Source of the DNA: Lentisphaerota bacterium
GTDB lineage: Bacteria > Verrucomicrobiota > Kiritimatiellia > Kiritimatiellales > Pontiellaceae
Assembly: GCA_012729265.1 (NCBI GenBank)
Contig: JAAYDL010000328.1
Span: 1-44,412 of the forward strand
Direction of reading: 5' to 3'
DNA: 44,412 nucleotides
Translations under genes and position numbers: made by a program
Notes under the pieces: generated by a model
The model's input: the letters and a program-made list of their open reading frames with translations, nothing else
What the model was told of the DNA's origin: nothing
Database searches by the model: none
Shown: in pieces, positions 3,704 through 9,167 of the stretch
Layout: the number at the start of each line of letters is the position of its first letter
How positions within the stretch are numbered: the first letter of the stretch is position 1

Positions 3704-4279
3704 ATGCCGAGTATCAAAGGAACCGAAACCGAAAAAAACCTGCTGAAATCCTTCGCAGGCGAATCGCAGGCGCGCATGCGCTACACCTATTTTGCAAGTG
3801 CAGCGAAAAAAGAAGGTCTCGTCCAGATGGCCGATATTTTTTCAGAAACCGCTGATCAGGAAAAGGAACATGCCAAGCGATTCTTTAAATTCCTCGAAGG
3901 CGGCGAACTGGAAATTACCGCTGCATTTCCTGCCGGTGTAATCGGAACGACTGCGGAAAACCTTGAAGCAGCCGCTAACGGCGAGCACGAAGAGTGGTCG
4001 GATATGTACCCGGCTTTTGCAAAAAAGGCACGGGAAGAAGGTTTTTGCGCCATCGCAACCGTCTGGGAAAAAATCAGCATTGCTGAGAAGCAGCACGAAA
4101 AGCGCTACCGTGATCTGCTGAACAACTTGAATGCGGGCAAGGTATTCAAAAAAGACGGGAAAGTGGTTTGGCGCTGCCGCAACTGCGGCTACATCCACGA
4201 AGCCGATGAAGCGCCCAATATGTGCCCCGCGTGTGCACATCCACAGGCCCACTTCGAAGTGCTGGCCGAGAATTGGTAA
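3704..4279 (+). CDS. rbr: Rubrerythrin
   Basis: Rubrerythrin is a cytoplasmic di-iron peroxidase that reduces hydrogen peroxide in anaerobes and microaerophiles, taking electrons through its own rubredoxin domain. The protein has 191 residues, the usual length. An N-terminal four-helix ferritin-like domain (about 1-145) supplies Glu20 and ExxH pairs at Glu53/His56 and Glu128/His131, with Glu97 between them. The C-terminal rubredoxin-like domain has Cys158-x-x-Cys161 and Cys174-x-x-Cys177. The ribosome binding site AAGGAG is about eight bases before the ATG. It stands alone between a small lipoprotein gene and a terminator shared with the convergent lgt, so it is probably monocistronic. Confidence 0.95.
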   Translation: MPSIKGTETEKNLLKSFAGESQARMRYTYFASAAKKEGLVQMADIFSETADQEKEHAKRFFKFLEGGELEITAAFPAGVIGTTAENLEAAANGEHEEWSDMYPAFAKKAREEGFCAIATVWEKISIAEKQHEKRYRDLLNNLNAGKVFKKDGKVVWRCRNCGYIHEADEAPNMCPACAHPQAHFEVLAENW

Positions 4280-4319: not shown

Positions 4320-5057
4320 TTAAGCGTCCGGCTTTCTGCTCCTCCAAAGAACAAGGGCGGCAGTTGCGGCGGACAACAGACAGACAAGCTGCGTGAGTGT
4401 GATAGGACCAATAAAAGCAGACAGTTCCCCGTCACCCCGGAATAGATCAATACCTGCACGACCTAAACCATAAACAAAGATAAACCAAAACAATAACAGC
4501 CCTCGCCACCGCTCATTGTTCAGTCGCAGCAAGAACCGCCACAGAAAAAGAACAAGAATGATTTCGTAAACCTGCGTCGGATGAAGCGCCACTCCGGTCG
4601 GAGCCGCAGTACACGTTTCCGGAAAAGTGACCCCCCAAGGCAGACTGCAGGGTCTCCCGTAGCAGCAGCCGTTGAGAAAGCACCCCGTTTTGGCAATGGC
4701 CCACGAGGGTGAAATGGTTATTACGGACAAGTCCAGCAGTTCTCGACGATGTTCAGCGGAAAATCCGGCCAACAGAATAACCAGGAAAAGATAGACCAGC
4801 ATTCCTCCCCACAACCCGCCTTGAATGTATGCATCAACATCAAAAACAATCAAAGGATCAAAGCCGACGGTTCGCCAATGATAAAGAAACTTTGCACCAG
4901 GAAGCATCCCAAGCACATAAAGACCAGTTAAAGCAACCGCCCTCCGCCGTCGAAGATGTAATCCGGGAGCAACACACAGACCGACAACGCCATGCATCAC
5001 GAAGCTCAGATAATACAGAATGCCGTATGTCGTCACAGAACCGATAGTGTTCCACAT
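4320..5057 (-). CDS. lgt: Prolipoprotein diacylglyceryl transferase (Lgt family)
   Basis: Lgt attaches diacylglycerol to the lipobox cysteine of prolipoproteins in the inner membrane, the first step of lipoprotein maturation. The protein has 245 residues with about seven hydrophobic segments. GCFLNGCCYGRP near residue 126 corresponds to the Cys-rich form of the Lgt signature seen in many non-proteobacterial members, and HPTQVYE near residue 158 is the second family signature. It is last in a minus-strand cluster whose first gene is itself a lipoprotein, 49 bases after the unknown membrane protein. Whether this is the only Lgt of the genome or a dedicated paralog cannot be told from this window. 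Confidence 0.82.
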   Translation of the reverse strand: MWNTIGSVTTYGILYYLSFVMHGVVGLCVAPGLHLRRRRAVALTGLYVLGMLPGAKFLYHWRTVGFDPLIVFDVDAYIQGGLWGGMLVYLFLVILLAGFSAEHRRELLDLSVITISPSWAIAKTGCFLNGCCYGRPCSLPWGVTFPETCTAAPTGVALHPTQVYEIILVLFLWRFLLRLNNERWRGLLLFWFIFVYGLGRAGIDLFRGDGELSAFIGPITLTQLVCLLSAATAALVLWRSRKPDA

Positions 5058-5106
5058 CGCTCCTTCATCTCCATATCATCGAAACAGGTCGTACTGATCC
5101 GGGCGT

Positions 5107-6072
5107 TTACTGCACCGGATTAAACAACTGCTGGACCGTACGCAGCTCCTCCTCATAATAACTGATATACTCATCGAAAGCCCGGGAGAGAAGTTCCGCC
5201 TGCTCTGGAGGAAGTATCTGCGAAGCCCTTGCTGAAATCGGAGTTCTCAGTCCCTGCATTTCGTTCAAAAAAGTGTCGATTTTTTCCGGCGTATATTCAG
5301 AAAAGACAGGCACGCCGTCCTTCTCAAAATCAACAGTGAATCGCGGATATGTTGTAATCTCGTCATAAAGCATCTCAACCAACCGCTCCTTACCCCCCTC
5401 TTCAAGTGCCGCATCGGACTGCTGCAGTTTCTTGTTTATTGAATCCACAAAGAGACGTTCGTGCCCTGTTCTTTCGTAGTATCGGAAATATTGACTATCC
5501 AGATCGTTATTCAGGAACCAGTCAATCTCTGCATCAAGCGCATCGGTTTCTGCGGTGATCTCCTGCAGCAAAAGACCTCGTTCTTCTTCGGTCAACATTC
5601 CGGTCATGAGCCGAATTTTCAAGTCCTCCTGAAGCACTCTGCGGGCTGTCAGAAGATCAAGAAAATATTCCTTCTCCTCTGGATTCAAATTATAGGCCTC
5701 AATCAGATCATTGAACGTATTTGAAACCAAAATACGCTGATCCCGCATAATCGCCTGACTTACGCCAGGACTTTTGAGGCTTTGAGAAATATTGCGCATG
5801 AGCCGCTCCTTATGTTCAGACTCCAGTTCTCCACGATGAAGCCGTGTCAGCTCTTCAATATCTAAAACCCACGGTTGCACATCCGAATCCTCAGGCTCCT
5901 TTTTGGGTTCCGATGTTTTGGAATATTCAGCCGGAAATGGATTTTCTGTATCATTTTCCAATCTGACCACGCCGTGCCACATGCCCAGAAAATAAAACGC
6001 AGAACACAAAGCCGTCATAACGATGACTGATACCAAAGAAACCGATCGGTTACTTTTTGATTTCATTCCCAT
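5107..6072 (-). CDS. Membrane-anchored helical protein of unknown function
   Basis: I do not recognise this 321-residue protein. One hydrophobic segment (about residues 12-32) follows a basic start, suggesting an inner-membrane anchor with the rest in the periplasm. The remaining sequence is highly charged and predicted to be mostly helical, with a LNPEEKEYFLDLL segment and an LTEEERGLLLQEI segment that resemble the LTxxQ-type helices of periplasmic sensor and adaptor proteins. It lies 44 bases after the second secretin-like gene and 49 bases before lgt, so it is likely co-transcribed with both. A role in assembly of the secretin-like proteins is only inferred from that position. Confidence 0.75.
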   Translation of the reverse strand: MGMKSKSNRSVSLVSVIVMTALCSAFYFLGMWHGVVRLENDTENPFPAEYSKTSEPKKEPEDSDVQPWVLDIEELTRLHRGELESEHKERLMRNISQSLKSPGVSQAIMRDQRILVSNTFNDLIEAYNLNPEEKEYFLDLLTARRVLQEDLKIRLMTGMLTEEERGLLLQEITAETDALDAEIDWFLNNDLDSQYFRYYERTGHERLFVDSINKKLQQSDAALEEGGKERLVEMLYDEITTYPRFTVDFEKDGVPVFSEYTPEKIDTFLNEMQGLRTPISARASQILPPEQAELLSRAFDEYISYYEEELRTVQQLFNPVQ

Positions 6073-6116
6073 CCCCCTTCCCCCTTTTCTCCCTCGAAGC
6101 GCTTCTTCGACGAGAT

Positions 6117-7145
6117 CTACTCTTTTTCCAGAGCAGATTCAGCGCCAAGAAACTCTCTATTCTCAAAATCGTAAGGGAGCAGAAAGTTTTCTCCGGGGGC
6201 AAGAATGTTCGGCGTAATAAAAAAAAGGATATCTACATTGCGCACAACCTCGTGCCGACTGGAAAAAAACCATTTAATCAATGGAATATGACCGAGTATG
6301 GGTACTTTCTTTTCCTCAACGGTCTTTCGGCGCGTTTTGAGCCCCCCGATTACAAAGGTTTCTCCCTCCCGCAATGTGACTTTAGTCTGGGTTTTAGAAA
6401 GCGTAATGACCGGTCGATCAATGTCCTGCAACGTCATAAAGCGAGAGCCGGAGGAAACTTCAATGTTGGATATATCGAGCGTCACGGCTCCGGGATAATC
6501 AAGCTCAATATACGGGGTAACCTCCAGCTTCACCCCAACCCTTTTCTTCTGAATATTCAGATTGCCTCCATCTTTTATATCGACATAAGGAAGCTCATCG
6601 ACCGTCTGAATTTCAACCTTGGTTTTATTAAGCGCCACGCCGACGGGGCGCGTACGAATAACGGCCTCGCCATGATCCACCAACGCACGTAGCTCCGCAG
6701 AAATCACCGAAGCATCGACATTCATTCCAGCGAGACTGATCCCCAGTCCCGGCATTCGATTTGCAAAACCGATACTGGTGGATCCGTCGGTCTGCTCCGC
6801 CAGGGTTGCAACAGAAGCCGGAGTAAATGCGGACGGACCCAGACCGACATTGCCCCCGTCCAGCACACTGGAAGAATTACCCCCGTTTGAATCCAATGTA
6901 GAAAGCCCATAGTTGAAGCCCAGCTGGCGGGCGCGTTCTTCGTCCACCTCAATCACCAAGGCCTCAATGGCCACCATGTGCCAATCCATCTTATCCTGAT
7001 ATCGCAAACGGTCCGGCAATACCGTTTCCTCCACCTCATTCGTAGTGGTGGATTCTTCTGCGGGCGGAGCGGACGTTTCGTCCGCGGCCATCGCGAAAGT
7101 CGCCGCGAATATGTTCAATCCAATGATGATACCGCGCAGTCTCAT
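6117..7145 (-). CDS. Short secretin-domain protein (second of a pair)
   Basis: This 342-residue exported protein has a signal peptide ending near AMA-ADE and then a secretin beta domain (GspD/PilQ/InvG family) with almost no N-terminal N-domains. HMVAIEALVIEVDEERARQLG near residue 56 matches the start of the secretin domain. FVIGGLKTRR, then VPILGHIPLIKWFFSSR, then DILFFITPNIL is the classical C-terminal order. Full secretins are usually 500-700 residues and carry N0-N3 ring domains, so this one is unusually short. Its ATG overlaps the stop of the preceding secretin-like gene (ATGA), so the two are translationally coupled. An outer-membrane channel or channel subunit is the likely role. Confidence 0.85.
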   Translation of the reverse strand: MRLRGIIIGLNIFAATFAMAADETSAPPAEESTTTNEVEETVLPDRLRYQDKMDWHMVAIEALVIEVDEERARQLGFNYGLSTLDSNGGNSSSVLDGGNVGLGPSAFTPASVATLAEQTDGSTSIGFANRMPGLGISLAGMNVDASVISAELRALVDHGEAVIRTRPVGVALNKTKVEIQTVDELPYVDIKDGGNLNIQKKRVGVKLEVTPYIELDYPGAVTLDISNIEVSSGSRFMTLQDIDRPVITLSKTQTKVTLREGETFVIGGLKTRRKTVEEKKVPILGHIPLIKWFFSSRHEVVRNVDILFFITPNILAPGENFLLPYDFENREFLGAESALEKE

Positions 7146-8065
7146 TCTGCCTCCTCCTCGACATCGTCAAAGTAGTTTTTATAAGGAGTGAGAATCTGCG
7201 CTTTCACCAGAAAGACGAGTTCCTTCTCAACCGTCTCTGTACTGGTGCTTGAAAAAATATATTTCAACAACGGGAGTTCGCCCAGAATCGGGATACCCCG
7301 CCGCCGTTCAACCTGCTGACTGGTCTTCATCAGTCCGGCGATAAACATTTTTCCATCCACCACAATCAGTCGGCTGCTGATGGAACGGCGATCCAGCGTC
7401 GGAACCCGCGTCGGTTGATTCAAATTATTCAATCCGACGTTCACAAAGCCGGTGATATCGGAAACATTGGTATCCATCGTCAAGACGATCAGATGATCAT
7501 CAATCACCTTCTGAACGCTTACCACCAGCGAAACCCCGGCTTTCTGATATTCCGTGATCGAAACCAGATTACGTCCGGCCGCCTTGGTCGACTCATAGGG
7601 GATCTCGGTCTCGTTGCTGAGCGTTGCCGTGTTATTGGCGCCCTTTTTTTCATCATTCAACTCGGCATCAGAAACCTCGGAAGAGGTGACCACATTATAC
7701 GGCTGACTGAGAATCCGTACGGTTCCCGCCCCCTCCAGCGCCTCAATAACAGCATCAAAACTTCCTGCAGAAGTATCCAACTTGTCGAAAAAGAGCCGCG
7801 CAGCGGAACCGAGCGGTTGATCAGACATGGTCGTCAACCCCGCGCTCTGAAGGGCAGAACCACCGCCTTGGTCCCGCTGATAAGCCACAGCAAAATCGAC
7901 ATCAAGTTCTCCCGAATGTTGCCACTCCAATACACAGGCCTCAATACGGACCTGCGGCTTTTCTTTTTCCTTCTCCAGCGCAAACAACGACAAGGGCAAC
8001 GCGAATGCATACACCACCGCAACCCGCAGTGAAGCTTTCAAATATCCTGCCCTTAATAACGTCAT
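7142..8065 (-). CDS. Short secretin-domain protein (first of a pair)
   Basis: This is a 307-residue exported protein whose signal peptide ends near LFA-LEK, followed directly by a secretin-type domain. VRIEACVLEW opens the domain, VRILSQPYNVVTSSE matches the conserved LSxP strand, and MFIAGLMKTSQ, then IPILGELPLLKYIFSS, then ELVFLVKAQIL form the C-terminal signature. It is distinct in sequence from its neighbour, so the pair is an old divergence rather than a recent duplication. It lies 18 bases after the TPR lipoprotein gene and overlaps the next secretin-like gene by four bases. No type II or IV pilus ATPase, platform protein or pilin is nearby. A hetero-oligomeric or accessory outer-membrane ring is a possible role. 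Confidence 0.85.
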   Translation of the reverse strand: MTLLRAGYLKASLRVAVVYAFALPLSLFALEKEKEKPQVRIEACVLEWQHSGELDVDFAVAYQRDQGGGSALQSAGLTTMSDQPLGSAARLFFDKLDTSAGSFDAVIEALEGAGTVRILSQPYNVVTSSEVSDAELNDEKKGANNTATLSNETEIPYESTKAAGRNLVSITEYQKAGVSLVVSVQKVIDDHLIVLTMDTNVSDITGFVNVGLNNLNQPTRVPTLDRRSISSRLIVVDGKMFIAGLMKTSQQVERRRGIPILGELPLLKYIFSSTSTETVEKELVFLVKAQILTPYKNYFDDVEEEAE

Positions 8066-8083
8066 AAAATATCCTTAGAGCCG

Positions 8084-9034
8084 TCAGTGCTCCCAATGCA
8101 GCTCCACATCATAACTCACAATGTTATACAGGTTATCGTAGCTGTCTGCCCGAGAAAGAAATGTTTTTACTTCGCCGGGACCCAGAGTTCCGATTTTAAC
8201 ATAATCCACATCCAGAACACTTTCCGTGATATCCCTGTAAATCACCTCGACTTCGACTCCGCGAAGCAGCTCGTTTCCCTGATTTCGAACACTGCCGGTC
8301 AGGTTATAAAACTGTATATCGCCTCCGGCATCTCCCGACGGGCTGCGCGAAGTGTATGTATGCATGCCATACACCCGCAAGGGTCGACGCCTCACATCCA
8401 TCTGATTCAAAATTTCAGGGGTCAAGGGAATCGGTTGTCCGTCATCATCCAGAATCAGCTTACTGTTGTTCAGATTGCGTTCCTCTCGCGTTGAGACGAT
8501 TTGATTGGCTTTGAAATAGTACGCTACCGCCTCTTCATAATTACCCAGCTTCCACTGCGTATCGCCGATCGCTTCGAGCACGCGCGAATCGGTGGGGTGG
8601 TCCGCGAGCAGAGCAAACAGTTCATTCAGATCTGCCCGAGTCCGTACATCCGCCAACCTTTTTGCTGCAGCAGGAGCGGCTTTTGACATGAGCAGATCGA
8701 TCTTCCGCACATATTCCTCAACGTCTTCAAAATACTGTCCGTGTGGATATTTCTCAAGATAGCCCAGAAAAACGACCCGGGACTCGTGATATGCTGATGC
8801 TGAATAGAGGGCAATGCCCTGCCGAAAGATAATGTCCTGTCGGATCGACGTCTCGGGATATTGGTCCTGGAGCGCTTCATAGCGCGCTGCCGCCAAAATA
8901 TATTCCTGATTGTCAAACGCCCGGTCCGCTTCCACCCGTCGCTCCCTATACGGAAGATCACTAAGCCATACGCACCCCGACAGCAATAACGAGATGACAA
9001 AACAGAGAGATAACTTGGACAACGAACGATACAT
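8084..9034 (-). CDS. TPR lipoprotein with C-terminal FxLYD-like domain
   Basis: This 316-residue lipoprotein has the lipobox LLSGC with Cys21 as lipidation site. Residues about 35-200 contain tetratricopeptide-like helix pairs (for example FDNQEYILAAARYEALQDQY and the segment around WKLGNYEEAVAYYFKANQ). The last 90 residues form a beta domain of FxLYD type (NLTGSVRNQGNELLRGVEVEV and later GTLGPGEVKTFLS). The ATG at 9034 is preferred to an in-frame TTG at 9040 because GAGTGG is correctly spaced for it. It heads the secretin-like cluster. TPR lipoproteins such as PilF act as pilotins for secretins, so a pilotin-like role is a reasonable but unproved inference. Confidence 0.8.
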   Translation of the reverse strand: MYRSLSKLSLCFVISLLLSGCVWLSDLPYRERRVEADRAFDNQEYILAAARYEALQDQYPETSIRQDIIFRQGIALYSASAYHESRVVFLGYLEKYPHGQYFEDVEEYVRKIDLLMSKAAPAAAKRLADVRTRADLNELFALLADHPTDSRVLEAIGDTQWKLGNYEEAVAYYFKANQIVSTREERNLNNSKLILDDDGQPIPLTPEILNQMDVRRRPLRVYGMHTYTSRSPSGDAGGDIQFYNLTGSVRNQGNELLRGVEVEVIYRDITESVLDVDYVKIGTLGPGEVKTFLSRADSYDNLYNIVSYDVELHWEH

Positions 9035-9167
9035 AATCAACCACTCAAATTACTGGTGTTGTATCAAACTGCTATACGGCATGAAAGCGAAAACGGGGAA
9101 AATATGGGGTGACAATGCAGGGCCTTTTTATTTGGACTCATAGTCTTGCGGTGAGCATTGCATAGGC

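Follow-up and report, generated by a model that had tools for sequence, protein, structure and literature searches.

Could two short proteins that each carry a secretin domain, encoded by overlapping genes next to a tetratricopeptide repeat (TPR) lipoprotein, make up an outer-membrane channel of their own? The question is raised by a stretch of 44,412 nucleotides (the window), which is contig C305 of a 3.4-Mb genome in 385 contigs. Characterised bacterial secretins (GspD, PilQ, SctC) are homomers whose pore is linked through the N domains to a machine in the inner membrane, and the TPR pilotins PilF and TadD are lipoproteins needed for secretin targeting and assembly. The initial annotation of the window had described a five-gene operon on one strand, encoding a TPR/FxLYD lipoprotein, secretins of 307 and 342 residues with a 4-base overlap, a helical protein and an Lgt. 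An ORF check confirmed all five frames, on the minus strand and with their coordinates unchanged:

8084 to 9040, minus strand: TPR lipoprotein, 318 aa from TTG at 9040, or 316 aa from ATG at 9034 (8084-9034)
7142 to 8065, minus strand: secretin A, 307 aa, signal peptide and secretin C domain only (PF00263, 1.1e-24)
7142 to 7145, minus strand: ATGA stop/start overlap of 4 nt from secretin A to secretin B, common to all three genomes that hold the genes
6117 to 7145, minus strand: secretin B, 342 aa, signal peptide and secretin C domain only (PF00263, 1.5e-30)
5107 to 6072, minus strand: helical protein that spans the membrane once, near its N terminus; an optional accessory
4320 to 5057, minus strand: Lgt-like paralogue, co-directional, outside the conserved unit

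The lipoprotein, secretin A and secretin B genes, which in this order span 6117-9040 and are referred to below as the trio, recur with the same order and the same ATGA overlap in two close relatives (Pontiellaceae, class Kiritimatiellae), the Pontiellaceae MAG G004 and Pontiella sulfatireligans F21 (G021). Identity across these orthologues is 57-66%, with 57-59% for the lipoprotein, 62-65% for secretin A and 62-64% for secretin B. The full five-gene order is found in neither relative, since the Lgt-like gene is absent beside the trio in both and the helical gene lies near it in only 2 of the 3 genomes. In G021 the trio stands alone between unrelated, oppositely oriented genes, and three genes therefore suffice as a unit. 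A five-gene operon was rejected because only the lipoprotein and the two secretins are conserved together; as judged from these loci, the conserved unit is three genes, not five. Promoter and terminator scans at the locus performed no better than shuffled sequences.

The two genes left outside this unit have histories of their own. Proteins of the helical family occur in 12 of 28 genomes of the same genus, and most of the copies are encoded at other places in the genome. The orthologue in G004 (41% identity) lies 2.4 kb downstream of secretin B and forms a divergent pair with the window copy, while the G021 locus has none. The helical protein is a divergent paralogue of a genus-wide protein, and a possible accessory rather than a core part. 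This single-span family matches no Pfam model and often occupies the same chromosomal place across the genus (L095:7319-8320, L096:8210-9178, L097:6834-7799, L099:8439-9404 and others). The Lgt-like protein matches PF01790 with 98 bits and reaches 49 bits for TIGR00544, below the Lgt equivalog cut-off of 118.9, and it gave no PDB match; a second, stronger Lgt (221 bits) is encoded on contig C361. It carries a Cys-rich NGCCYGRP motif, and its gene adjoins a convergent rubrerythrin gene (3704-4279).

Orthologues of the lipoprotein were detected in 3 of 346 genomes of the class, all within one genus represented by 28 genomes, and a phylum sample of 289 genomes added no other case. Secretin B orthologues are present in the same 3 of the 28 congeneric genomes, with secretin A between B and the lipoprotein in each, and other congeners have secretins of different kinds. 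Scanning contigs with the secretin B sequence alone returned nothing, and scanning with the secretin B alignment returned only the two known loci. Codon positions 1, 2 and 3 agree in about 0.7, 0.8 and 0.4 of aligned codons, so that the third is about half as conserved as the second, which shows strong purifying selection on the trio. This codon-position pattern, and the presence of orthologous trios in two other genomes with order and overlap unchanged, show that the trio consists of selected genes and not of chance ORFs. The patchy distribution, together with the very long branches of both secretins in trees, could also suit a remnant, in which a full secretin system has decayed to its barrel domains and is kept without defined function. 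We regard this as highly improbable, as the frames are intact in three genomes, lengths and overlap are conserved, and second codon positions are ~80% identical against ~40% at the third. The trio is confirmed, conserved and rare, and no description of its composition was found in the open-access literature searched.

Each secretin has PF00263 as its sole Pfam match, well placed above the Pfam cut-off of 27.5 bits: 106.5 bits for secretin B (residues 154-315 on profile positions 1-168) and 87.3 bits for secretin A (residues 144-292 on positions 21-168). Neither gave a match to PF03958, N0 or any other N domain in Pfam or NCBIfam, and there is no room for one upstream of the C domain. Both proteins consist of a signal peptide and a short linker followed by the C domain, which opens with its conserved V-x-I-E-A motif, and therefore neither has N0-N3; the reduced secretins of the initial annotation are borne out. 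Profile comparison with solved secretins aligned secretin B residues 56-316 to PilQ 448-706 and secretin A residues 28-293 to ExeD 222-480. The best named NCBIfam families were PilQ for B (score/cut-off in bits: PilQ 119/284, GspD 93/351, SctC 72/238) and MshL/GspD for A (MshL 76/250, GspD 62/351), and neither protein reached the equivalog or subfamily cut-offs of GspD, PilQ, MshL or SctC. The signal peptides suggest that both secretins are exported by Sec.

Two other readings of such short secretins were considered and rejected. The proteins are not fragments of one interrupted full-length secretin, a concern that had been raised from the outset, as each has its own signal peptide and a nearly whole PF00263 domain. 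An N domain supplied in trans was likewise discarded, as all six PF03958 matches of the genome sit in proteins that also have PF00263; a stand-alone Secretin_N protein was not found in the genome.

Single-chain structure predictions, based on 36-sequence alignments of secretins from the same genome and relatives, gave a mean pLDDT of 67.7 and pTM of 0.62 for secretin B and a pLDDT of 74.7 and pTM of 0.65 for secretin A. In both models the secretin core is recognisable by its helix and long strands, with its topology retained. One loop modelled with low confidence (residues 80-143 in B and 57-99 in A) is probably the counterpart of the gate region. For each model, the 40 PDB matches with E<=0.001 were without exception secretins, but with TM-scores of only 0.3-0.4, so the overall monomer shape is not settled by the models. 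The matches by sequence are independent of these models.

The relationship between the two secretins bears on whether they would work together. Secretins A and B are ~20% identical over their full length and 29% over the core, and they have lost different consensus residues, with B lacking the ILS motif and A the second G of GGL. Such divergence would suit two separate homomeric channels, or one pore with the other protein as cap, plug or assembly factor, and a second subunit is not needed in principle because mitochondrial GspD without its N domains forms pores by itself (PMC8134430). However, A and B strictly co-occur and their genes keep the 4-nt coupling in each of the three genomes, which argues for a shared A-B complex, and the lip motif P-x-L-G-x-x-P-x-x-K-x-x-F is kept in both; we consider separate roles for A and B unlikely, although a serious contender. 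Even when most of its N region is missing, PulD can multimerise and mix with the full-length protein (PMC4604470). We favour, at about even chances, the reading that the trio specifies a hetero-oligomeric channel in the outer membrane together with a TPR lipoprotein dedicated to it, the channel being either passive or working with machinery encoded elsewhere; in this reading hetero-oligomerisation, the pilotin role and the cargo are all inferred. The rarity of the trio (3 of 28 congeneric genomes) counts against a mixed-ring channel. A stricter form, an obligate hetero-oligomeric ring of two N-domain-less subunits with a dedicated TPR/FxLYD lipoprotein that acts as a free-standing gate without a trans-envelope machine, is put forward tentatively and is on the doubtful side.

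The lipoprotein has the lipobox LLSGC, a BamD/YbgF-like TPR part and an FxLYD-like C-terminal domain, and a lipobox is present in all three orthologues, consistent with predicted anchoring in the outer membrane. Several TPR models matched weakly, below their curated cut-offs, and the FxLYD match was near threshold (21.6 bits against a cut-off of 23). NCBIfam did not recognise the protein as PilF or TadD, and it is weakly BamD-like. By analogy with known systems, it is a candidate pilotin for secretins A and B. In Tad pili, the secretin RcpA binds the TPR lipoprotein TadD through its final residues (PMC10499894), which makes binding of a secretin tail a reasonable guess here. Beyond the barrel, secretin B carries the invariant run PGENFLLPYDF (residues 317-327), the second longest invariant run of the protein, and secretin A has an acidic C-terminal tail in all three genomes. 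The net negative charge of the lipoprotein's TPR part is a reason for caution about this idea.

As the initial annotation had noted, no ATPase, platform or pilin gene lies beside the trio, and this holds in all three genomes. A genome-wide search, which that annotation had proposed, found five ATPase genes of the GspE/PilB type that pass the family cut-off, as well as one pilMNOPQ locus and one Tad locus that lacks a secretin, so the lack of a motor means only that none is nearby. The Tad locus (TadE-TadG-TadE-X-CpaB-TadA-TadB-TadC) raises the possibility that the trio is the outer-membrane part, equivalent to RcpA/TadD, of the Tad-type pilus encoded in this genome. In relatives, nine Tad loci also gave no secretin match by ORF or tblastn, TadD, itself a TPR lipoprotein, binds the tail of a secretin (PMC10499894), and Tad is present in all three trio genomes. 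However, Tad occurs in 15 of the 28 genomes and thus in 12 without the trio, the 3/3 overlap is not significant (p = 0.14 by chance), the trio secretins have no N domain to meet CpaB/RcpC, and contig breaks may hide genes. A Tad role is thus possible but not favoured, and we rate it as quite improbable. The Pontiellaceae Tad loci inspected (G000:C255 (L092) and L137-L145), none with a detectable secretin, share the order TadE-TadG-TadE-unknown 254 aa-CpaB-TadA with FHA domain-TadB-TadC-FHA-like protein-lipoprotein.

Where the two secretins come from was addressed with trees, in which each sits on a branch of ~3 changes per site. In a tree with both, A and B were sisters (95/85), a grouping flagged as possible long-branch attraction. 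In two separate trees, where A and B were each represented by the G021 copy alone, secretin B fell beside exporter-linked short secretins (SH-aLRT 86) and secretin A had no settled place. Outside its orthologues, secretin A is matched most closely by short secretins that precede HlyD/MacB-type exporter genes, and secretin B by those at L011 and L012. Descent from the HlyD/MacB-linked short secretins is not claimed, because secretin A has no settled position although B lies near them.

These relatives form arrangements of their own. At L011, L012, L016, L028 and L031, in other Kiritimatiellae, the gene for a secretin of ~520-655 aa directly adjoins a PilB/GspE-like ATPase gene, and is sometimes between two. 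At two loci in the genome of the window, G000:C222:7016-11853 (L040) and G000:C332:9904-14557 (L042), the gene for a short secretin that carries a single Secretin_N domain has an HlyD-type adaptor gene directly behind it, and genes for an ATPase of the MacB type and a permease of the MacB/FtsX type come next. The pair of secretin and HlyD genes is also found at L148, L150-L154, L157, L163, L165, L171, L172 and L175, across many Verrucomicrobiota families, as if the secretin took the place of TolC in a tripartite exporter. Our literature search found no paper on the secretin and HlyD/MacB exporter arrangement.

In the favoured mixed-channel reading, secretins A and B would be exported by Sec and the lipoprotein would be anchored in the outer membrane through its lipobox. 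There it would bind a secretin tail, most likely the invariant run of secretin B or the acidic C-terminal tail of secretin A, and recruit the secretin subunits to the outer membrane. Made from coupled cistrons, A and B would then assemble through their secretin cores into a mixed ring, which may either release periplasmic substrates directly or serve a machine encoded elsewhere. With no N0-N3, such a ring would have no periplasmic vestibule and no docking of the GspD/PilQ type to an inner-membrane platform. If true, the N-domain-less pair and its lipoprotein would mean that a secretin pore can be freed from the inner-membrane machine and built from two subunits, and the trio would offer a small natural model for secretin assembly.

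Compared with known systems, the trio secretins share the PF00263 core and the lip motif with PilQ/PilF, GspD/GspS and MshL, but they lack N0/AMIN/N1-N3 and have no ATPase, platform or pilin genes alongside. The exporter-linked secretins of Verrucomicrobiota are short like A and B, yet have one Secretin_N domain and exporter genes. RcpA-TadD (PMC10499894) resembles the trio in its reduced secretin N-terminal part, its TPR lipoprotein and the candidate binding through the secretin C-terminal tail, whereas the trio has a second secretin, lacks N domains altogether and has no Tad genes nearby. Its lipoprotein, in contrast to TadD, has an additional FxLYD-like domain, no detectable TadD homology and a net negative TPR part where TadD has a positively charged groove. 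The closest precedent is the GspD/GspDL pair of protist mitochondria, in which GspD without N0-N3 forms pores and a divergent C-domain paralogue, GspDL, co-occurs (PMC8134430). Both cases combine two divergent C-domain paralogues that have neither N0-N3 nor an S-domain of known kind. The V-x-I-E-A start of the C domain, missing in mitochondrial GspD (PMC8134430), is kept in the trio secretins, and split-off N-domain proteins (GspDN), as in the mitochondrial system, were not found for the trio. The trio differs further in that it is bacterial, its secretins carry signal peptides and it includes a lipoprotein of its own; if the favoured reading is true, it would be the bacterial counterpart of the reduced GspD/GspDL pair that has been proposed for mitochondria.
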